A stretch of DNA of 64,000 bases from Methylobacillus rhizosphaerae (GTDB lineage: Bacteria; Pseudomonadota; Gammaproteobacteria; Burkholderiales; Methylophilaceae): assembly GCF_900187985.1 (NCBI RefSeq), contig NZ_FZOA01000007.1, forward strand, positions 1-64,000. The letters run 5' to 3'. A program made the translations under genes and the position numbers. The notes beneath the pieces are model-generated. The model had not been told where the DNA came from. It did no database searches and saw only the letters and a list, made by a program, of their open reading frames with translations. How positions within the stretch are numbered: the first letter of the stretch is position 1; the number at the start of each line of letters is the position of its first letter. Below, in pieces: positions 5,160-16,531 of the stretch.

Positions 5160-6218
5160 TTATTGCAGGAATACCTGTACGCTTTTCGGTTTCAAATATA
5201 CCTGGCTGCCCTGGTCCAGCTTCAGCTCGCGGAAGCGTTCACGGGTAATTTCAGCTTCGATAATGTCGGCATTGTTCTCTGGTTGTAATTCCAGCCGGAC
5301 GAGCGGGCCGGCAGCATGAATGTAGCTGACAACTGCCTGCAATGCCTGATCGCCGTTTTTCTCGGTATATACGTCAATGTCGTGGGGGCGTACATATGCG
5401 AGCGCATCACTGTCCTGCACAGTGTGATGTGCGTTGAGGTTGAGTGCAATATCGCCGATATGTGCCTGCCCGGCATTGACCCGGCTGTGGAATTGATTGA
5501 CGTTGCCGAGGAATTTATAGACGAACGGCGAAGCCGGATTGTCATAGACTTCCTGTGGAGAGCCGATCTGCTCGATATGTCCCTGGTTCATGACCACAAT
5601 GCGGTCTGCCACTTCCAACGCTTCTTCCTGGTCGTGCGTCACGAACACGCTGGTGATATGCAGCTCATCGTGCAGGCGGCGTAACCAGCGGCGCAGGTCT
5701 TTACGCACCTTGGCATCCAGGGCGCCGAATGGTTCATCCAGCAGCAATACCTTGGGTTCCACTGCCAGGGCGCGAGCCAGTGCAATGCGCTGGCGCTGGC
5801 CACCGGAAAGCTGTGGTGGATAACGATCTGCCAGCCAGTCCAGTTGAACCAGTTCCAGCAGTTGATGCACCCTGCGGTGTATTTCTGCTTCGGTAGGACG
5901 TAGTTTTTTCGGCCGCACTCGCAAGCCAAATGCGACATTCTCGAATACCGTCATGTGGCGGAACAGGGCGTAATGCTGGAAGACAAAACCAACCTCGCGC
6001 TCACGCACATCACGATTGGTGGCTTCTACTCCATGAAAATGGATACTGCCGGAATCCGGGGATTCCAGCCCGGCAATGATGCGCAGCAGAGTGGTCTTGC
6101 CGCAACCGGAAGGTCCGAGCAAGGCAACCAGCTCACCGCTTGGTACATCCAGGCCGACGTTGTCGAGGGCGGTGAAGCTGCCAAATTCTTTTTTGATATT
6201 ACGGATTTCAATACTCAT
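5160..6218 (-). CDS. cysA: Sulfate/thiosulfate ABC transporter, ATP-binding protein CysA
   Basis: This 352-residue ATPase energises sulfate and thiosulfate import. Walker A (GPSGCGKTT), the ABC signature ([15 protein letters not shown]), Walker B ([14 protein letters not shown]) and the switch His ([16 protein letters not shown]) are all present. A C-terminal TOBE-like domain (about residues 240-352) is typical of CysA and MalK. A ribosome site (AAGGA) precedes the ATG. It is the last gene of the cysTWA group. Length and motifs match functional CysA. Confidence 0.95.
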
Positions 6219-6254: not shown

Positions 6255-7145
6255 TTACTCAGCAGTATTACTGCTGATTGCAACACGGTTACTTTGCCAT
6301 TCGATATAAGACTTCAGTGCCAGTGTGATCAATGCCAGGAAAGCCAGCAGTGACGCTACGGCAAATGCGGCTGCGTAGTTGTATTCGTTATAGAGAATTT
6401 CAACGTGCAGCGGCATGGTGTTGGTCAGGCCGCGGATATGTCCGGATACCACCGACACTGCACCAAACTCACCCATGGCGCGGGCATTGGTGAGAATCAC
6501 GCCATACAGCAGACCCCATTTGATATTGGGCAATGTGATATGCCAGAGAATCTGCCAGCCGGAGGCGCCCAGCACCAGCCCGGCCTCTTCCTCTTCCTTG
6601 CCCTGGGCTTGCATGAGGGGAATGAGCTCACGCGCAATGAACGGGAAAGTGACGAAAATGGTTGCCAGCACAATGCCCGGGATGGCAAAAATCACCTTGA
6701 GGTCATGGTCGATCAACCATTCACCAAACCAGCCTTGTAGGCCGAAAATCAGGACATAAATCAGGCCGGCAATGACGGGGGAGACGGCAAAAGGCAGGTC
6801 AATCAACGTGATCAGTACGCTTTTTCCCTTGAAATCGAACTTGGCGATGGCCCAGGCAGCCGCGACCCCGAATACCAGGTTGAGCGGCAGGGAAATGGCG
6901 GCAGCAATCAGTGTCAGCTTGATGGCGGACAGTGCATCAGGCTCTATCAGGGCGGCGATATAGGTTTCAAACCCCTTGCGTAATGCTTCCGTGAATACGG
7001 CAGCCAGCGGAACAAAAAGAAACAAGGTGAGGAACAGCAGGGCTACTGTAATCAGGCCCCAGCGTACCCAGGCTGGTTCGGAGGTAGCACGGCTGCGTGC
7101 CACCTTGGCATTGTATTTTGCGAGTTGAGAAATGGCGGCTGACAT
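6255..7145 (-). CDS. cysW: Sulfate ABC transporter permease CysW
   Basis: This 296-residue inner-membrane permease has about six transmembrane helices and the binding-protein-dependent transport motif near the C-terminal third ([19 protein letters not shown]). It pairs with CysT as the channel heterodimer. The start [12 protein letters not shown] was chosen because it has a nearby AGGAAC site and gives the family length. A longer in-frame extension upstream would overlap cysT. It is 36 nt upstream of cysA and 10 nt downstream of cysT. Confidence 0.93.
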
Positions 7146-7155
7146 GGTCTGGTTC

Positions 7156-7995
7156 CTATCTTGATGCGCTGTGACGATGACTGCTCCACCATTGCAGGCC
7201 GTTGATGGCAAACAATAGCAGGAAGGAAAGAATGAGCATCACGACGGCGACTGCAGTAGCGCCAGTGTAATCATACTGTTCCAGCTTGGTGATAATGATG
7301 AGCGGCGTAATCTCGGACACCATGGGCATGTTGCCCGCAATGAAAATGACGGAGCCATACTCGCCTACGGCGCGTGCGAACGCGAGGGCAAAGCCAGTCA
7401 ATAACGCAGGCCAGAGGGCAGGCAGGATCACGCGGCGGAACGTCTGCCAACGATTGGCGCCCAGGCTGGCTGCGGCCTCTTCGGTTTCTGCTTCCAGGTC
7501 TTCGAGCACCGGTTGTACGGTGCGGACGACGAATGGCAGGCCAATAAAGGTCAGGGCCACTACGACACCAAGTGGAGTAAATGCTACTTTCAGGCCATAA
7601 GGCTCAAGCAGGCTGCCGATCCAGCCGTTGGCCGAGTAAACCGCAGTCAGCGCAATGCCGGCAACCGCAGTTGGCAGTGCAAATGGCAAGTCAACCAGCG
7701 CATCGACCAGCTTCTTGCCAGGGAAGGTGTAGCGCGTCAGTACCCAGGCAGTCAGCAGGCCAAAGATGGCATTGATGATGGCAGCAAACAGTGATGCGCC
7801 AAATGTCAGCTTGTATGAGGCGATGACGCGGGGAGTGGTCACGGTATGCCAGAACTCGGCAAAACTCAGCTCGGTAGTCTTGAGGAATGCGGCTGATAAA
7901 GGAATCAATACAATCAGGCTGAGATAGAGCAGGGTATAGCCCAGTGACAGATTGAACCCGGGAAGCACGTTATGTGGTTTGTGTTTTTTTGCCAT
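7156..7995 (-). CDS. cysT: Sulfate ABC transporter permease CysT (CysU)
   Basis: This 279-residue permease starts [21 protein letters not shown] and has about six helices. The conserved EAA-type loop is visible ([23 protein letters not shown]) together with [16 protein letters not shown], which is characteristic of CysT. It forms the sulfate channel with CysW. It opens the cysTWA group, and an AT-rich palindrome lies 60-85 nt upstream (8057-8080). This suggests its own promoter in addition to any read-through from sbp and the EAL gene. Confidence 0.93.
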
Positions 7996-8056
7996 ATTGT
8001 TATTCAGACCATGTAACTGGGGCCAAGGAGAAGGAAATGTAACAGATGATCTACAT

Positions 8057-8080
8057 TATAAAAAATACTATGTTTTTATA
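8057..8080 (-). promoter_or_regulatory. AT-rich palindromic operator candidate upstream of cysT
   Basis: The arms TATAAAAA (8057-8064) and TTTTTATA (8073-8080) are separated by 8 nt. The same design occurs upstream of oscA (16811-16837) and of the porin gene (18683-18703), all next to sulfur genes on the minus strand. It could be a site for a sulfur-status LysR regulator of the CysB/Cbl/SsuR kind. This is inference: no regulator gene is in the window. Confidence 0.45.
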
Positions 8081-8119
8081 ATAAAATTCTTTTTTGTTAT
8101 TTAAGAGTGCTGTTGCATA

Positions 8120-8998
8120 TCAGGCGACACGCCTGCCCAGCTGCAGTGTGGGTTTCAATGCATCGCTGGGCTGGAGTTCACGTGCCGTCACTGGCCTGCC
8201 CAACAGGTAGCCTTGCAGCAATGTGCTGCCGGATTCGATGGCAATCTCCAGGCCGGCCTGGGACTCTATGCCGGTAATGACGGGCTGTGCACCGATGTCA
8301 TGTACGAGCTGGATCAGCTGGGGCAATATTTTCCGCATACGTGGATTGCGTTCTGCTTCCCTGATGATCTGGATGTCAAATTTCACGAATTCCGGTGCCA
8401 GTTTCCACAATCGTTCCAGGTGGGAGTGTTTGCTGCCGAAGTTACCTATTGCAATCCGGTAACCGCGCTCAGTGTAGTTTTCAATGGCATCTGCCAGCTG
8501 ATGCTCGTGCTCGACCACGTTTTCCTGTATCTCGATCACCACGCGGTTGGTGGGGACCGAATTCGAATGCAGGATGCGCTCAAACACCTTCCCATGTGCA
8601 TTGACGCTGATCAGCAGGTTGGGGTGTACATTCAGGAACAGGAGGCCGTTTTCCGCATAAATCTGGCGAAAATTCAGTACATGCAATGTACGGACCACCC
8701 GGTCAAACTTGACGAGTTTTCCCACTTGCTCGGCAAAGCTGAATGCGAACTCCGGGCTGATGGCCTGCTGGCCTCCCAAGGAGGGGCGGATAAAGGCTTC
8801 ATGTCCAAACAAGTCACCGGCCTCACTATCGTAAATCGGCTGGAAAGCGCTGTTTAACTGCAATCCCAGAAAAGTACTGTTGAATTCTCCTGACGATTGT
8901 TCTTCCAGGCCATATTCATCCAGGTCCAGGTATAAGGATTCGCGTAGTTGTGCTTTCAGGTTTTCGATAGCTGTTGATGTCGGAGTTTGTCTGGTCAT
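8120..8998 (-). CDS. Degenerate EAL-domain protein within the sulfate uptake cluster
   Basis: This 292-residue cytosolic protein has an EAL-type (c-di-GMP phosphodiesterase) fold spanning about residues 45-275. The signature ELL/EAL is EAF here (EAFIRP, E67). The N of the NVHP strand and the E of VVIEIQE remain. However, the metal-binding DDFGTG is replaced by GNFGSK, so the catalytic aspartates are missing, and the GIES and LQGYLLGRP motifs are retained. It is therefore more likely a c-di-GMP sensor or protein-interaction domain than an active phosphodiesterase. It begins 11 nt after sbp, so it is co-transcribed with a sulfate-binding protein and followed by cysTWA. That placement is unusual. 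Confidence 0.8.
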   Translation of the reverse strand: MTRQTPTSTAIENLKAQLRESLYLDLDEYGLEEQSSGEFNSTFLGLQLNSAFQPIYDSEAGDLFGHEAFIRPSLGGQQAISPEFAFSFAEQVGKLVKFDRVVRTLHVLNFRQIYAENGLLFLNVHPNLLISVNAHGKVFERILHSNSVPTNRVVIEIQENVVEHEHQLADAIENYTERGYRIAIGNFGSKHSHLERLWKLAPEFVKFDIQIIREAERNPRMRKILPQLIQLVHDIGAQPVITGIESQAGLEIAIESGSTLLQGYLLGRPVTARELQPSDALKPTLQLGRRVA

Positions 8999-9009: not shown

Positions 9010-9999
9010 TTATTTGTTGCTGTAAATCTGGTCAAAAACGCCACCATCGGCAAAATGCGTTTTCTGTGCTTTCTGCCAGCCACCGAATATTTCATCGACA
9101 GTGAATAATGCCAGCGGCTTGAACTGTGCCTGGTTGGCAGCCAGGACTTCGGCTGAGCGTGGGCGTAGATAGTGGCGTGCGGCAATTTCCTGCCCTTCTT
9201 TCGAGTAGTGAAAGTCCAGGTAGGCTTGAGCCACTGTCCGGGTCTTGCGCTTGTCTACCACCTTGTCCACAAGTGCGACCGGGTTTTCTGCCAGGATGCT
9301 GGAAGAAGGGTAGACCACGTCGAAGTGATTATTGCCAAGCTCCTTGCTGATCAGGAACACTTCATTTTCAAATGTCAGCAGCACATCACCGATCCCGCGT
9401 TGTGCAAAAGTAGTGGTCGCTCCGCGACCTCCGGCATCCAGCACTGGCACATTTTTGAACAGGCGTGACACAAAATCACGTGCCTTGACTTCATCACCGC
9501 CTTGCTTGATGACATAGCCCCAGGCAGCGAGGTAACTATAGCGGCCATTACCGGATGTCTTGGGATTGGGGATGATGACGCCTACACCTGGCTTGGCCAG
9601 GTCATCCCAGTCCTTGATCTGCTTGGGATTGCCCTTGCGTACCAGGAACACGGTAGTCGAAGTTGTGGGAGAGCTGGCGTTAGGCAGTCGTTTCTGCCAA
9701 TCGGCTGGAATCAGCTTGCCGCGTTCGAACAGGATATCAATATCATTGCTCTGGTTCATGGAGATGATGTCAGCCTGCAGCCCATCTGCCACCGCCCGAG
9801 CCTGTTTGCTGGAGCCGCCATGGGATTGATTGACGGTGACGGATTCCCCAGTTTTTTGCTTCCAGTACTTGGTGAATGCGGGGTTGAATTCCTTGTAGAA
9901 TTCGCGTGTCACGTCATAGGAAACGTTGAGCAGGGTCGTATCGGCATGGGCGAGACCGGCGCTTAACAGTAGGCTGATTGCGATTATTTTTCTTAACAT
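9010..9999 (-). CDS. sbp: Periplasmic sulfate-binding protein (first copy)
   Basis: This exported binding protein of about 329 residues has a signal peptide (MLRKIIAISLLLSAGLAHA). The family landmarks LLNVSYDVTREFYKEFN, SHGGSSKQARAV, GNPKQIKDWDDL and NPKTSGNGRYSYLAAWG line the sulfate pocket in this family. It feeds sulfate to CysTWA. The ATG at 9999 is preferred because a GAGGCTTC ribosome site precedes it. It diverges from the serine acetyltransferase/encapsulin operon across a 360-nt AT-rich intergenic region. A paralogue of similar design lies at 15521. Confidence 0.93.
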   Translation of the reverse strand: MLRKIIAISLLLSAGLAHADTTLLNVSYDVTREFYKEFNPAFTKYWKQKTGESVTVNQSHGGSSKQARAVADGLQADIISMNQSNDIDILFERGKLIPADWQKRLPNASSPTTSTTVFLVRKGNPKQIKDWDDLAKPGVGVIIPNPKTSGNGRYSYLAAWGYVIKQGGDEVKARDFVSRLFKNVPVLDAGGRGATTTFAQRGIGDVLLTFENEVFLISKELGNNHFDVVYPSSSILAENPVALVDKVVDKRKTRTVAQAYLDFHYSKEGQEIAARHYLRPRSAEVLAANQAQFKPLALFTVDEIFGGWQKAQKTHFADGGVFDQIYSNK

Positions 10000-10296
10000 T
10001 GAAGCCTCATGAATGGGGAACGGGATGAGAGGCACTATAGATAGGTTTAAAAATAATGTAAAAGAATATAGTTGAATATATTTAACATTAAAAGTTATTT
10101 AATGAGGGATTCTATATTTTTATTAATTCTATATGTATAATCATTTCGAATAATGAATTGTCTTCCATTGCTGGGGATTTTGCTGCAACATTATTCACTA
10201 ATGCGCAGCGATTGGTGGAGATCACCACTTGATACCGCAAGATTGAGACAATCACACAATTTGGAATGAGTTAGCACACGCTGACCGGACAACCGG
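10000..10296. promoter_or_regulatory. Divergent intergenic region between sbp and the encapsulin operon
   Basis: This AT-rich region should hold promoters for both directions. It contains a perfect 7-bp inverted repeat, CATTAAA-N5-TTTAATG (10086-10104), and several TATAAT-like hexamers (for example around 10135-10142). No precise start site can be assigned by eye. From about 10200 the sequence is less AT-rich and leads into a strong terminator hairpin, as expected for a transcribed leader. Confidence 0.4.
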
Positions 10297-10333: not shown

Positions 10334-10360
10334 GTTTTTGGCTTCATGCAGGAATATTGG

Positions 10361-11317
10361 ATGAGTGTAAGTGAGCAGAATCAGGAGTCTGGTGACGATT
10401 TGGCTATCAGCCAGATCGTGAAACAGTTGCGCGATGTCAGGCAGGCGTCTCTAGAGCATCGCAACCGATTGAACAGGCCGCCCAAGCTGCCTGCGCGCAA
10501 GGCGTTATCCGAAGTGGTGGATGGGATAGGCGCTGCGCTGTTCCCCAACCGACTGGGTATGCCGGATTTGCGTGAAGAGGGCATAGATTACTTTGTCGGT
10601 CATACATTGGATGTAGCCCTGCGGGAGCTATTGGTGCAGGTCAGGCTGGAGTTGAGGCTGATAGATGATGCCGTGAATCATCAGCGTAGCCCGCATGAAC
10701 AGGCCATGCAGTTGGTGCGTGATTTCGCGTTGCAGTTACCGGCAGTGCGTCAGTTGCTGGATAGCGATATACGTGCCGCGTATGAGGGTGATCCTGCCGC
10801 TCGCAGTGTGGACGAGGTACTGGTGTGCTATCCCGGTATCAACGCGATCATTCATTACCGTATTGCCCATGTGTTGCATCAGCTGGGTGTGCCGTTGATT
10901 GCGCGCATGATCACTGAGATTGCCCATTCCGCCACTGGGATTGATATTCATCCCGGCGCGCAGATTGCCGAAGGATTTTTCATTGACCATGGAACCGGGG
11001 TCGTTATCGGTGAAACCAGCATTATCGGGCGCAATGTCCGGGTCTATCAGGCCGTGACTCTGGGAGCCAAGCGCTTTCCCGTTGATGCCGATGGCAGCCT
11101 GGTCAAGGGCAATGCACGTCATCCAGTGGTGGAGGATGACGTGGTCATCTACGCTGGCGCCACGATACTGGGGCGCATCACGATTGGCCGCGGTTCAGTG
11201 ATCGGCGGCAATGTCTGGCTCACTTACAGTGTGCCCGCCAACAGCAATATTACCCAGGCGCAGATGAGGGAAGGAGCGCCCACAGGCCAGCGTGCTGGCA
11301 CTGTGACTCATCAATGA
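10361..11317 (+). CDS. epsC: Serine O-acetyltransferase (EpsC/SrpH type)
   Basis: This 318-residue enzyme makes O-acetylserine from serine and acetyl-CoA, the carbon acceptor for cysteine synthesis. The C-terminal left-handed beta-helix shows the hexapeptide pattern (TGIDIHPGAQIAEGFFID, HGTGVVIGETSIIGRNVRVYQAVTLGA), including the catalytic His region. The long N-terminal helical part (about 150 residues) fits the EpsC/SrpH branch rather than short E. coli CysE. ATG 10361 has AGGA 7 nt upstream; an ATG at 10346 is less well placed. It is followed within 60 nt by the encapsulin and its desulfurase, giving one operon for cysteine formation and breakdown. Confidence 0.92.
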   Translation: MSVSEQNQESGDDLAISQIVKQLRDVRQASLEHRNRLNRPPKLPARKALSEVVDGIGAALFPNRLGMPDLREEGIDYFVGHTLDVALRELLVQVRLELRLIDDAVNHQRSPHEQAMQLVRDFALQLPAVRQLLDSDIRAAYEGDPAARSVDEVLVCYPGINAIIHYRIAHVLHQLGVPLIARMITEIAHSATGIDIHPGAQIAEGFFIDHGTGVVIGETSIIGRNVRVYQAVTLGAKRFPVDADGSLVKGNARHPVVEDDVVIYAGATILGRITIGRGSVIGGNVWLTYSVPANSNITQAQMREGAPTGQRAGTVTHQ

Positions 11318-11374
11318 AACTCATCAAATATCAACAATAGAAACCTGGATTGATTTTTCAAAGGAGAGTATTAA

Positions 11375-12292
11375 ATGACAGATATTCATCAGGGCCAAAC
11401 CGCATTGGGTGATGTCGCCGCCCGCACGCTGGCCAATGCTACCAAAACCGTGCCCATGCTGGGTGCCATCACGCCGCGCTGGCTGGTGCACCTGTTGCAA
11501 TGGGTTCCGGTCGAAGCCGGTATCTACCGCGTCAACAAGGTCAAGGACAATCACCATGTCGAGGTGGATTGCTCCAACAAGGACGAACGCGAACTGCCTG
11601 CCACTTTCGTGGATTACGAGGAGTGGGGTCGTGAATATGTGCTGAATGCCGTCAATACGGTAGTTGACGTGCATACCCGTATTTCTGATCTCTACAGCAG
11701 CCCGCACAACCAGATCCGTGAGCAATTGCGCCTGACCATCGAGACGGTGAAAGAGCGCCAGGAGAGTGAGCTGATCAATAACAAGGAATACGGTTTGCTA
11801 CATAACGTAGCAGAGGGCCAGAAGGTGAAATCTCGCACCGGTGCGCCAACACCTGATGATTTCGACGAACTGATTTCCCGTGTGTGGAAAGAGCCGGCAT
11901 TCTTCCTTGCACATCCTCAAGCCATTGCTGCCTTTGGCCGCGAGTGCACTCGCCGTGGCGTGCCGCCGCCGACTGTCAGCCTGTTCGGTTCCCAGTTCAT
12001 CACCTGGCGTGGCATCCCCCTTATCCCGTGCGACAAGCTGCGCGTGACCAAGGGCAAGACCAATATCCTGCTGTTGCGTACCGGTGAAAGCCGCCAGGGT
12101 GTGGTGGGCCTGTATCAGCCCAACCTGCCGGGCCAGCAGAGCATGGGTCTGTCCGTCCGCTTCATGGGCATCAATCACAAGGCAATTGCTTCCTACCTGG
12201 TTTCCCTTTATTGCTCGCTGGCGGTGCTGACCGAGGATGCGATTGCCGTGCTCGAGAATGTCGACGTAGGCAACTACTATGACTACAAGTAA
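11375..12292 (+). CDS. srpI: Family 2A encapsulin shell protein (SrpI-like)
   Basis: This 305-residue protein (MTDIHQGQTALGDVAARTLAN ...) resembles SrpI, the sulfur-regulated protein of cyanobacteria. SrpI is now known as a family 2A encapsulin: an HK97-fold protein that self-assembles into a hollow shell. Length, the RWLVHLLQWVPVEAGIYRVNKV N-terminal arm region and the RTGESRQGVVGLYQPNLPGQQSMGLSVRF stretch fit that group. A strong AAGGAGA ribosome site precedes the ATG. The next gene starts 14 nt before this stop and encodes the expected cargo. In the family the shell encloses cysteine desulfurase. No other cargo candidate is adjacent. Assignment is by recognition and context, not by a profile search. 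Confidence 0.88.
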   Translation: MTDIHQGQTALGDVAARTLANATKTVPMLGAITPRWLVHLLQWVPVEAGIYRVNKVKDNHHVEVDCSNKDERELPATFVDYEEWGREYVLNAVNTVVDVHTRISDLYSSPHNQIREQLRLTIETVKERQESELINNKEYGLLHNVAEGQKVKSRTGAPTPDDFDELISRVWKEPAFFLAHPQAIAAFGRECTRRGVPPPTVSLFGSQFITWRGIPLIPCDKLRVTKGKTNILLLRTGESRQGVVGLYQPNLPGQQSMGLSVRFMGINHKAIASYLVSLYCSLAVLTEDAIAVLENVDVGNYYDYK

Positions 12293-14138
12293 CTTCAACG
12301 ACCTGTCATCATTCGAGCCGGAAGCGATTCTTGCCGCAGTGCCGGGCGAGCACCCGCGCATGGCTGCAGCCATTGCGGTGGGGCGGGAAGCACAGGCAAG
12401 CGGGCATCTGGATATTGACGAGCTGACCCGCATTGCCAATGAACTCTATGCCGAAGGTTTTCCACACAGTGCGCAAGGGTTTCCCTCCACGGCATCGCTG
12501 ACGGATTCCGCTGCGCCGTATGCAGCAGGTAGCCCAGGGATAGGCGCACCTGTGCCGCCTGCGCCTTCCGTGGTATCGGCATTGCCTGCTGGCGCACCTG
12601 CGGCGGCCAATGTCATCCCTGGCATTGAACTTGCGCAGATTGATACTCCTAGCCTTGGCGTGTCGCCATCGCAACTGCCACCGGAGTTCAGCCAGGAGAG
12701 GTTGGATGCCATCGGGCCAGCGCCTGCTTTTCCCGGCCTGGATATCAGCAGCCTGCTGGGAGGTATAGAGATTCCCTATCCAGTGGACATGCAAGGGGTG
12801 CTGGCTTCGACTGCCAATATCCCGCATCACCCGGAACAATCGTCTGCCAGCAAGGCATCGCCATATTATTTTGTGGCGGACCGTCCGGGTGTGCCGGAAG
12901 TGGCTGGTTCTGCCCACCCGCCGTTTGACGTCAACCTGGTACGCAAGGATTTTCCCATCCTGCGCGAACTGGTGAACGGCAGGCCGTTGATCTGGCTGGA
13001 TAATGCTGCTACGACGCAGAAGCCGCAGGCCGTGATCGACAGGCTGAGTTATTTCTACCAGCATGAGAACTCCAATATCCACCGCGCTGCGCATGAACTT
13101 GCCGTTCGCGCTACGGACGCCTATGAAGGCGCGCGCGAAACTGTGCGCCGTTTTATCAACGCGCCAGCAGTGGAAAACATTGTGTTCGTGCGTGGCACGA
13201 CAGAAGCGATCAACCTGGTGGCCAAAACCTGGGGCAGGAAGCATCTGGGCGAGGGTGACGAGATCATTATCACCAATCTGGAGCACCATGCCAACATCGT
13301 ACCCTGGCAGCAGCTATGCCAGGAAACCGGGGCTAAGCTCAAGGTGGTGCCAGTGGACGACAGCGGGCAGGTGCTGCTGGATGAATACCAGAAATTGCTG
13401 ACTTCACGCACTAAATTGGTTTCATTCACCCAGGTGTCCAACGCCTTGGGCACGGTGACGCCAGCGAAGGAAATGATTGCCATGGCGCATGCTGTCGGGG
13501 CGAAAGTCCTGCTCGATGGTGCGCAGTCCGTATCGCATATGCGTACCGACGTGCAATGGCTGGATTGTGATTTCTTCGTGTTCTCGGGGCACAAAGTGTT
13601 TGGTCCGACTGGCATCGGTTCTCTATACGGAAAGCAGGATGTGCTGGATGAAATGCCAGCCTGGCAGGGTGGCGGCAACATGATCCAGGACGTGACTTTC
13701 GAGAAAACCGTGTATCACGGCGCGCCCGCCAAGTTTGAGGCAGGCACCGGCAATATCGCCGATGCCGTGGGCATGGGTGCAGCGCTGGAATATGTCGAGT
13801 GTCTGGGTATGGAGAACATTGCGCGCTACGAGCATGAGCTATTGGAATATGCCACAGCGGCGCTCAACAAGGTGCCGGGCTTGCACCTGATAGGCACCGC
13901 GCGGGAGAAAGCCAGCGTATTGTCGTTCAACCTCAATGGCTACAAGAGCGAGGAAGTCGGGGCCGCCCTGAACCAGGAAGGCATTGCTGTGCGCTCTGGC
14001 CACCATTGCGCCCAGCCTATCCTGCGGCGCTTCGGTGTGGAAACCACGGTCAGGCCGTCGCTGGCGTTCTATAACACCTATGCGGAGATTGATATTTTGC
14101 AAGGGGCGTTGCTAAAACTGGTATCAGCAAGGCGGTAA
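12279..14138 (+). CDS. Encapsulated type II cysteine desulfurase (family 2A encapsulin cargo)
   Basis: This 619-residue two-part protein has residues 1 to about 210 rich in Pro, Ala, Gly and Ser, with no fold visible. That matches the disordered cargo-loading segment of SrpI-linked desulfurases. Short ordered islands recur (for example LSSFEPEAILAAVPGEHPRM near the start). From about residue 212 (PFDVNLVRKDFPIL) runs a complete SufS-type aminotransferase-fold desulfurase. The PLP lysine is K439 (FSGHKVFGPTG) and the catalytic cysteine C577 (RSGHHCAQP). It removes sulfur from cysteine as a persulfide. The 14-nt overlap with srpI implies coupled translation. Ordinary SufS is about 410 residues, so the N-terminal 200 are the distinctive addition. 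Confidence 0.93.
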   Translation: MTTSNFNDLSSFEPEAILAAVPGEHPRMAAAIAVGREAQASGHLDIDELTRIANELYAEGFPHSAQGFPSTASLTDSAAPYAAGSPGIGAPVPPAPSVVSALPAGAPAAANVIPGIELAQIDTPSLGVSPSQLPPEFSQERLDAIGPAPAFPGLDISSLLGGIEIPYPVDMQGVLASTANIPHHPEQSSASKASPYYFVADRPGVPEVAGSAHPPFDVNLVRKDFPILRELVNGRPLIWLDNAATTQKPQAVIDRLSYFYQHENSNIHRAAHELAVRATDAYEGARETVRRFINAPAVENIVFVRGTTEAINLVAKTWGRKHLGEGDEIIITNLEHHANIVPWQQLCQETGAKLKVVPVDDSGQVLLDEYQKLLTSRTKLVSFTQVSNALGTVTPAKEMIAMAHAVGAKVLLDGAQSVSHMRTDVQWLDCDFFVFSGHKVFGPTGIGSLYGKQDVLDEMPAWQGGGNMIQDVTFEKTVYHGAPAKFEAGTGNIADAVGMGAALEYVECLGMENIARYEHELLEYATAALNKVPGLHLIGTAREKASVLSFNLNGYKSEEVGAALNQEGIAVRSGHHCAQPILRRFGVETTVRPSLAFYNTYAEIDILQGALLKLVSARR

Positions 14139-15113: not shown

Positions 15114-15449
15114 TTAGTGGAGAGCCTGGTGGAAGGTCACCCTACATTCATCCTCCGTGTCATGGGCTGGATGCAATTGTCTGAGCCGGGTGCGCAGCGC
15201 AGCTGGGCCGTTGGGGGTGTAGACGATCCTGACACCGCGCTTGGCTGCGCTCTGCTTGATCTTATGCGTGAAGGTATGGCTGATCCAATCGGTCACCAGC
15301 ACGATCAGCTCGGTATCGTGCGGAATGATTTTCTTGCCATCACCCACTTTACGCCCCGACCAGTGGTTGATATGGGTAATGCCGAAGTTGGATAGCTCCT
15401 GCTTGATACCATCGATCTGGTCGCCGCCGACAATTAACGCTGTACTCAT
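15114..15449 (-). CDS. DUF2325 domain protein
   Basis: This 111-residue soluble protein (MSTALIVGGDQIDGIKQEL ...) has a Rossmann-like start (ALIVGGD), a SGRK motif and an ELIVLVTDWISH strand. These match the DUF2325 family, whose function is unknown. GGAGA precedes the ATG. It lies between sbp and mop on the same strand, 38 nt from mop, so it is probably part of the sulfur-starvation operon. The upstream 71-nt gap contains a strong hairpin without a T-run. Confidence 0.78.
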   Translation of the reverse strand: MSTALIVGGDQIDGIKQELSNFGITHINHWSGRKVGDGKKIIPHDTELIVLVTDWISHTFTHKIKQSAAKRGVRIVYTPNGPAALRTRLRQLHPAHDTEDECRVTFHQALH

Positions 15450-15473
15450 GATCAGAGTCTCCTGTTGTTCGGG

Positions 15474-15498
15474 AAGGTGCCGGATTTTGTCCGGCACC
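15474..15498 (-). other. Intercistronic hairpin between sbp and DUF2325
   Basis: GGTGCCGGA / TCCGGCACC with a 5-nt loop lies between two co-directional genes. There is no U-tract in either direction, so it is more likely an RNA-stability or processing hairpin protecting the upstream sbp message than a terminator. Confidence 0.5.
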
Positions 15499-15520
15499 AC
15501 TCCTGGTTAATCAATGTGCT

Positions 15521-16531
15521 TTACTGCTGGTAAATCTGGTCGAATGTGCCGCCATCGGAAAAGTGGGTCTTCTGTGCCTTCTGCCAGCCGCCAAACTCTG
15601 CATCGATAGTGATCAGGTTCAGCTTGGGGAAGACCTTTTCATATTTCTTGGCTACTGATTCCAGGCGTGGACGATAGTAGTTCTTGGCTGCAATTTCCTG
15701 GCCTTCTTCACTGTATAAATGTTCAAGGTAGGCTTCAGCAATTTTCCGGGTGCCACGCTTGTCCACTACCTTGTCCACGACAGAAACAGATGGTTCGGCG
15801 AGGATGGAGAGGGAAGGCGCCACGATCTCGAACTTGTCCGGTCCTAGCTCTTTTTGTGCGAGGAAAGCTTCGTTTTCCCAGGCCAACAGCACATCGCCAA
15901 TGCCACGCTCGACAAAAGTGGTAGTTGAGCCGCGTGCACCGGAATCCAGCACTGGTACATTCTTGAGTATCTTGCCTACGAACTCGCGGGTCTTGGCTTC
16001 ATTATTACCAAATTTCTTCTGGGCATAAGCCCAGGCAGCCAGGTAATTCCAGCGTGCGCCGCCAGAAGTCTTGGGGTTGGGAGTGATGACTTTGATGCCG
16101 GACTTGGCCAGGTCGTCCCAATCCTTGATGTTCTTGGGGTTGCCCTTGCGCACCAGGAACACGATGGTGGAGGTGTAGGGGGAGCTGTTGTCCGGCAGGC
16201 GCTTGATCCAGTCTTTTGGGATCAGCTTGGCTTTTTCCTGCAATGCATCGACATCATAGGCCAGCGCCAGCGTCACGACATCGGCCTGCAAGCCATCGAT
16301 GACAGAGCGGGCCTGTTTGCCTGAACCGCCGTGGGAAGCTTTCACCGTGACTTTGTCGCCGGTTTTGTTCTTCCAGTATTTGGTAAAGACATCGTTGTAT
16401 TCCTGGTACAGTTCGCGTGTCGGGTCGTATGACACATTCAGCAAGGTTACATCTGCAGCCAGTGTGGACAGTGGTGTGATGAGTGCTGCAACGGCAATCA
16501 GGCCGGAGAAGCGTGGAAACAGGTTTTTCAT
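15521..16531 (-). CDS. sbp: Periplasmic sulfate-binding protein (second copy)
   Basis: This 336-residue paralogue of the product at 9010-9999 has its own signal peptide ([26 protein letters not shown]). It shares the pocket motifs [41 protein letters not shown] and [17 protein letters not shown]. It lies 21 nt after oscA in an operon with no permease, so it would have to share CysTWA. Having two binding proteins suggests different affinities or ligands (sulfate versus thiosulfate) or different expression conditions. Which is which cannot be told from sequence. Confidence 0.93.

Follow-up and report, generated by a model that had tools for sequence, protein, structure and literature searches.

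In PA3825, according to the excerpted text of PMC5301497, the first metal is held by Glu39, Asn98, residue 130 and Asp160, and the second, when it is magnesium, by Asp161 and Asp183. When the second metal is calcium, Asp161 is joined by contacts from Asp160 and Glu217 that replace Asp183 (PMC5301497, same excerpt). Hydrolysis by an EAL domain with a single metal has also been proposed in the past (excerpts of PMC3527489 and PMC5301497). Other EAL domains are known for binding: those of FimX and LapD are known c-di-GMP receptors, and YkuI of Bacillus subtilis, which was crystallised with c-di-GMP and calcium (PDB 2w27), is cited in an excerpt of PMC3527489 as having one metal. Furthermore, the degenerate EAL protein BluF antagonises a repressor without phosphodiesterase activity (excerpt of PMC3509220), and BvgR of Bordetella is an EAL-domain regulator that lacks the catalytic set and for which the available part of PMC11537037 describes no DNA-binding domain.

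As for sulfur, an excerpt of PMC9431422 indicates that CysB could be partly required for the c-di-GMP effect on alginate transcription. The available part of PMC10411656 merely cites a sulfate-starvation study, the term “EAL” is absent from the main text of PMC8399692, and the word sulfate is absent from the main text of the BvgR paper. We found no description of an EAL subfamily linked to the sulfate-binding protein Sbp, or of a link between EAL proteins and sulfate acquisition, in searches of the open-access literature (subscription journals lay mostly outside the scope of the search). Here we analyse an EAL gene that lies directly downstream of sbp in a 64,000-nucleotide stretch of Methylobacillus rhizosphaerae (the window), and that a sequence-only reading had described as catalytically degenerate and co-expressed with sbp.

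The EAL gene and its sulfate transport locus

The gene occupies the second place in the minus-strand order sbp - EAL - cysT - cysW - cysA (Table 1), and its coordinates, strand, length and position between sbp and cysTWA are all as the sequence-only reading gave them. PF00563 is the sole Pfam domain found on the protein and scores 142.7 bits against a curated cut-off of 31.3, which makes it a member of the EAL family; the closest named relatives are from four Methylobacillus species (91-85% identity). The cysW ORF as listed overlaps cysT, so the true cysW start is probably further downstream.

Table 1. Features of the sbp-EAL-cysTWA locus in window coordinates
Feature	Position	Strand	Evidence or remark
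sbp, encoding the periplasmic sulfate-binding protein; partner gene upstream of EAL	9010..10035	-	TIGR00971, E 1.9e-138
Degenerate stand-alone EAL-domain gene	8120..8998	-	292 aa, ATG start
EAL domain, residues 47-269	8192..8860	-	PF00563, E 1.6e-41
EAF motif, residues 67-69, catalytic Glu67 retained	8792..8800	-	E67 in 66/66 readable family rows
GNFGSK, residues 185-190, replaces DDFGTG of active enzymes (D185G, D186N)	8429..8446	-	
TGIE, residues 242-245, replaces EGVE (E242T)	8264..8275	-	
Conserved AT-rich block in the EAL-cysT gap	8036..8085	-	nine-sequence Methylophilaceae alignment, 20 invariant columns
cysT, sulfate permease	7156..7995	-	TIGR02139, E 3.5e-130
cysW, sulfate permease	6255..7211 (ORF as listed)	-	TIGR02140, E 6.6e-125
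cysA, sulfate transporter ATPase	5160..6218	-	TIGR00968; PF17850 CysA C-terminal domain

Only 11 nt separate the sbp stop from the EAL start, which suggests that the two genes share one transcript, whereas 124 nt separate the EAL gene from cysT. The longer gap holds the conserved AT-rich block, with the consensus TATATCATTATAAAAACATATTATTTTT and, further on, CTGTTACATT in nine Methylophilaceae, so that cysTWA probably has its own promoter; the block is probably that separate promoter or a candidate site for a CysB-type regulator. A scan for consensus promoters and terminators gave numbers similar to those of shuffled sequences (2 promoters vs 3.2; 3 terminators vs 2.3). We rejected a single transcript of all five genes, because the block before cysT, together with 11 places in other genomes where CysT does not lie within 600 bp downstream, favours an sbp-EAL unit. 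The proposed co-expression with sbp is thus consistent with the confirmed spacing and would probably not extend to cysTWA from the same promoter.

Divergent from sbp, positions 10346-14138 carry a cysE-like gene, a family 2A encapsulin shell gene and a gene for the cysteine desulfurase cargo of the shell, a block that is also found near sbp in L115, from another family. The same neighbourhood contains a second sulfate-binding protein gene (15521-16531), followed by a DUF2325 gene (15114-15500).

The genome itself (G000; 99.99% complete) is 2.37 Mb long and encodes four EAL and four GGDEF domains; five congeneric genomes measure 3.0-3.2 Mb and have at least 22 GGDEF domains each. Three of its four GGDEF proteins have a readable GGDEF motif, and c-di-GMP synthesis is probable in this organism, which makes a receptor role of the EAL protein possible there.

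Association of the EAL gene with sbp across genomes

We sampled 150 Methylophilaceae genomes and took as orthologues all matches of at least 280 bits (the next match scored 171), which gave 68 places in 67 genomes; named loci outside this sample, such as L066 and L068, were excluded from the counts. In 64 of the 68 places a same-strand Sbp gene is found no more than 600 bp upstream, and in 57 a CysT gene no more than 600 bp downstream. Of the four places that lack a near Sbp, G026 is at a contig edge and G031b is a second copy; the other two are G004 and G005. The 11 places without a near CysT include one contig end and one second copy, and in nine of the 11 CysT is farther off or outside the stretch, with Sbp still beside the EAL gene. 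Lying 11 nt after sbp and on its strand, the window gene is a member of this Sbp-linked subfamily.

The orthologue also follows the transporter from genome to genome: 66 of the 82 family genomes that encode CysT have it, against 1 of the 68 that do not (Fisher test, p = 8e-26, uncorrected for relatedness). Among genomes with at least five GGDEF matches, the corresponding counts are 60 of 72 and 1 of 20.

Beyond the Methylophilaceae, Sbp was found upstream within about 1.4 kb in all ten genomes of family f5 that gave a match. Genes found there between sbp and the EAL gene encode a 1-Cys peroxiredoxin (L112:9266-9901 and L120:7213-7851) or, in L114, a porin; in the four loci tested (L112, L114, L115, L120) the EAL gene is followed by one for a PF06821 serine hydrolase. 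The peroxiredoxin is one that we take to resemble the sulfate-starvation protein LsfA. In two f5 genomes a PAS-GGDEF-EAL gene lies upstream of sbp (L113:2260-5079 and L120:3062-5686), so that a second c-di-GMP protein flanks sbp there; this order is presumably similar to that of Pseudomonas aeruginosa PA0285-PA0283. In Gallionella, Sideroxydans and relatives (L070, L072, L122-L125), and also in L127, the EAL gene directly adjoins Sbp. The L127 locus carries a tandem pair of sulfate-binding protein genes (L127:6010-8106) directly upstream of an EAL gene that is intact at all eight catalytic positions considered below.

The link does not extend to every relative. Among stand-alone relatives of the order, five (L117, L118, L126, L129, L130) show no Sbp in their 16 kb, and for a sixth, L128, the distance to Sbp is about 4.6 kb. 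In the nearest longer EAL group (group X), Sbp was found in the flanks up to 1.5 kb at none of 21 loci. A class-wide sample of 369 genomes, the window genome included, gave matches at 1e-30 in 14, and the other 13 are all in ORFs of at least 431 aa.

Collectively, the adjacency in Methylophilaceae, its recurrence in f5 and the phyletic pattern led us to reject a chance association of sbp and the EAL gene. Conservation next to sbp had been proposed as a check by the sequence-only reading, and it is borne out here, with the nearest other EAL group as the negative counterpart. Judged from these genomes, the position beside sbp is a conserved and specific feature of the subfamily, tying an EAL protein to sulfate acquisition in at least three bacterial families (f1, f5 and f25). 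A functional tie to the encapsulin was rejected: the shell gene was matched in 18 of 32 named loci, some of them short, and L063, L150 and L152 keep the Sbp-EAL pair without a shell match in 14.8-17 kb, so the gene follows Sbp and not the shell.

Catalytic residues, ancestry and selection

Among eight catalytic positions, the window protein retains E67, N123, E156, K206 and E245 and is altered at three (D185G, D186N and E242T), and so does not carry all the metal-binding and catalytic residues of an active c-di-GMP phosphodiesterase. Two canonical EAL domains encoded elsewhere in this genome and 18 relatives of 419-540 aa are intact at all eight. The sequence-only reading had noted the replacement of DDFGTG by GNFGSK, and this is a true loss. 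It had also counted EAF as degeneracy, which we ruled out as a sign of inactivity: the catalytic Glu is retained, and among 67 readable family sequences the third position of the motif is L in 54 and F in nine. Loss of catalysis remains likely; a third loss, E242T in TGIE, had been overlooked.

The losses at D186 and E242 are shared by most of the family. In the 68 Methylophilaceae rows of the residue table (of which G144 is unreadable and G036 lacks the loop), D186 is missing from 62 of the 66 rows readable there and E242 from 61 of 67; of the 66 rows readable at the two positions, 59 have lost both. Other positions are largely kept: E67 (66/66), N123 (59/67), E156 (61/67), D185 (62/66), K206, Q262 and Q53 (each 67/67), R71 (60/67) and D208 (66/67). 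The window copy and G010, its nearest relative, have lost D185 too. The entire DDFG loop is absent from Methylophilus aquaticus (L067), and L068 retains DDFG, its reading breaking off further on.

We placed the PA3825 metal sites on the family by the order of the motifs and an almost constant offset (25-28) rather than by alignment, which assigns D186, D208 and E242 to the second site and E67, N123, E156 and D185 to the first. Since D186 and E242 match second-site residues, most Methylophilaceae copies are predicted to lack the second metal site, with the first-metal and most ligand-contact residues remaining.

All eight positions are intact in three of the 68 Methylophilaceae rows (G008, G041 and G018) and, outside the family, in 14 of 17 rows with Sbp near upstream (the exceptions being L124, L121 and L086). 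One genome (G504) has two Sbp-adjacent EAL genes, L123 and L124, one intact at all eight positions and the other with D186N and E242Q. The sequence-only reading had named, as its counter-case, homologues with full catalytic residues in random neighbourhoods; only the first half of this case applies, since intact homologues do exist but most of those found in the subfamily also stand near sbp.

The tree comprises 108 rows, with G144 excluded; group X is represented in it and in the residue table by 18 of its 21 loci (L102, L106 and L109 excluded). The 67 Methylophilaceae rows group in a single clade (100/98), next to which stand four Gallionellaceae-type rows (99/90). Their intact rows fall in the first-branching groups, G008/G041 first (the fork is weak, 88/47) and then the G018 group, which also contains G011 and two G031 copies. 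With intact rows in these groups and in most of the Sbp-near rows outside the family, catalysis is most simply ancestral. It would have been lost within Methylophilaceae more than once, because the G018 group mixes an intact row with G011, which lacks D186 only, and G031b, which lacks E242 only. The Sbp-linked L127 branches deeper than the Sbp-less clade L117/L118/L126/L130, the deeper forks being weak, and because of this placement the Sbp link would either have been lost in that clade or have been gained twice. The 18 group X proteins are 419-540 aa long; two that were tested have a C-terminal extension of about 165 aa, one of them with a sub-threshold trace of YkuI_C (E 0.049), which offers only a suggestion of descent from a YkuI-like sensor protein.

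Pairwise dN/dS was estimated on 14 hand-picked pairs, 13 of them computable (G133/G138 was saturated), and lies between 0.018 and 0.044 in ten of the 13. The pairs with dS below 0.5 gave 0.044 (G002/G025), 0.038 (G047/G017), 0.042 (G083/G106), 0.042 (G027/G089) and 0.032 (G098/G074). Window/G010 gave 0.037 at a dS of 1.87, and the high-dS pairs gave 0.018 (G058/G093, dS saturated), 0.029 (G050/G022), 0.029 (G030/G043) and 0.028 (G066/G109). Higher values were obtained for G041/G008 (0.109), G011/G031a (0.135) and G031a/G031b (0.139). Further comparisons of the window copy gave 0.038 with M. caricis, 0.068 with Methylovorus MM2 and 0.146 with Methylovorus mays (M. gramineus was not computable), and an Sbp value for window/L041 (0.908) was excluded as a fault of alignment or ORF picking. 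In an alignment of 31 sequences 49 columns are invariant. On these estimates the gene is under strong purifying selection and has been retained after its predicted catalytic decay.

The gene is nevertheless dispensable, because it carries a single-base frameshift in a complete congeneric genome (G053, 2,971,517 bp; a sequencing error is possible), is reduced to a remnant in G095, has an in-frame stop in G144 and is absent from 16 of the 82 genomes with CysT, some of which are incomplete MAGs.

G058 is a 1.6 Mb MAG (97% complete, 200 contigs) with the full sbp-EAL-cysTWA operon. No GGDEF domain was matched in this MAG even at E 1, a search in which a cyclase could be missed at 97% completeness, and its one EAL domain is the sbp-linked orthologue. 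This copy has changed further: it carries N123S, E156Q, D186N and E242T, and R71 is replaced by Lys. In G093, a relative of G058, two GGDEF domains are present. Persistence of the gene in G058 argues against c-di-GMP being required everywhere, as far as this MAG represents its genome. The family covers all stages of a conversion: fully equipped copies, copies that have lost the second metal site, and a copy in which first-site and substrate residues have gone too, in a genome with no detected GGDEF domain. It is therefore a natural series in which to ask how an EAL domain is used after c-di-GMP cutting stops.

Proposed role and comparison with described EAL proteins

We propose that the product of the window gene is an EAL-fold regulator without hydrolytic activity, co-produced with Sbp and part of an Sbp-linked EAL subfamily within its order, a reading drawn from sequence comparison to which we give an even chance. 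Under this hypothesis, an ancestral sulfate-linked phosphodiesterase would have become a non-hydrolytic regulator. Sulfate shortage would induce sbp and the EAL protein with it, and the protein, no longer cutting c-di-GMP, would act by binding a partner, with c-di-GMP as a possible ligand where it exists. The most likely output would be local control of sulfur starvation, through a CysB-type LysR regulator or the transporter, and not the global c-di-GMP pool. More tentatively, and with some doubt, we suggest a two-step history for the former phosphodiesterase: after the second metal site was lost, some lineages would also have stopped depending on c-di-GMP, leaving a protein that serves the sulfur response purely as an adaptor, even in a genome with no GGDEF match. 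Residual activity may be possible where the first metal site is whole, since single-metal hydrolysis has been proposed. The subfamily would then point to a switch linking sulfur supply to cell control in methanol-eating bacteria and some of their relatives.

The structural model is compatible in outline with the domain assignment: AlphaFold, run with 31 sequences, gave a mean pLDDT of 81.5 and a pTM of 0.80, with low confidence for helix 8-22 and both ends, and the best 50 Foldseek matches listed are all EAL proteins (TM 0.64-0.72 by query). Residues such as H125, H135 and Y180 are conserved in the Sbp-linked families and not in the outgroup, and E140, H144 and T150 are conserved with the Gallionellaceae-type rows alone; a partner surface in this region is a guess.

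The strongest alternative, which we consider less likely, is that the protein is a c-di-GMP receptor in the manner of FimX, LapD or YkuI, with no metal or one, through which sulfate uptake or the sulfur response would be adjusted to the level of c-di-GMP. The first-metal positions and the ligand-contact positions Q53, R71, K206, D208 and Q262 are mostly kept, YkuI offers a precedent for c-di-GMP binding with one metal, and the window genome has GGDEF domains, most with a readable motif. However, the window copy has additionally lost D185, and in G058 the orthologue persists with R71, N123 and E156 changed and no GGDEF found.

It is improbable that the gene is a functionless, decaying relic carried in the sulfate operon. 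The frameshift, remnant and in-frame stop, and the absences from CysT-bearing genomes, are what such a relic would leave, but the five unsaturated pairs have dN/dS of 0.032-0.044, the invariant columns run through all 31 sequences and the gene has been kept next to Sbp through rearrangements. Least of all do we expect the protein to have remained an active phosphodiesterase that responds to sulfate starvation by lowering c-di-GMP to promote motility, a natural circuit for the intact copies found in most Sbp-linked rows outside Methylophilaceae and in three within, but one at odds with the loss of D185, D186 and E242 from the window copy and of the second-site pair from most of its family.

Taken together, the regulator that we favour resembles several described EAL proteins without matching any of them. 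YkuI (PDB 2bas/2w27) is the best PDB match of the single sequence (E 4.4e-17), and the family profile ranks a stand-alone EAL protein of Vibrio cholerae (6ifq) above it. Like the window protein, YkuI has Asn at the second position of the DD pair (DN), but it keeps Glu at the place of E242, where the window protein has Thr. It also joins its EAL domain to a C-terminal domain; the window protein, with 292 aa, an EAL domain only and no YkuI_C domain, is not a member of the YkuI family. FimX and LapD are matched by sequence and appear among the best 50 Foldseek matches listed, but their EAL domains are parts of multi-domain proteins, whereas the window protein is a stand-alone EAL domain. FimX keeps four of ten catalytic residues (excerpt of PMC3527489) and the window protein five of the eight checked. 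BvgR lacks 12 of 13 key residues including the Glu of EAL (available part of PMC11537037), a residue that the window protein keeps. The best NCBIfam match is RimA (NF052265), a named regulatory phosphodiesterase, whose equivalog family the window protein does not join, its 93.5 bits standing against a cut-off of 430. The degenerate EAL domain of BluF acts in a BLUF-EAL protein, a make-up that differs from that of the window protein. YdiV is, we assume, a degenerate EAL adaptor of the same type as BluF.
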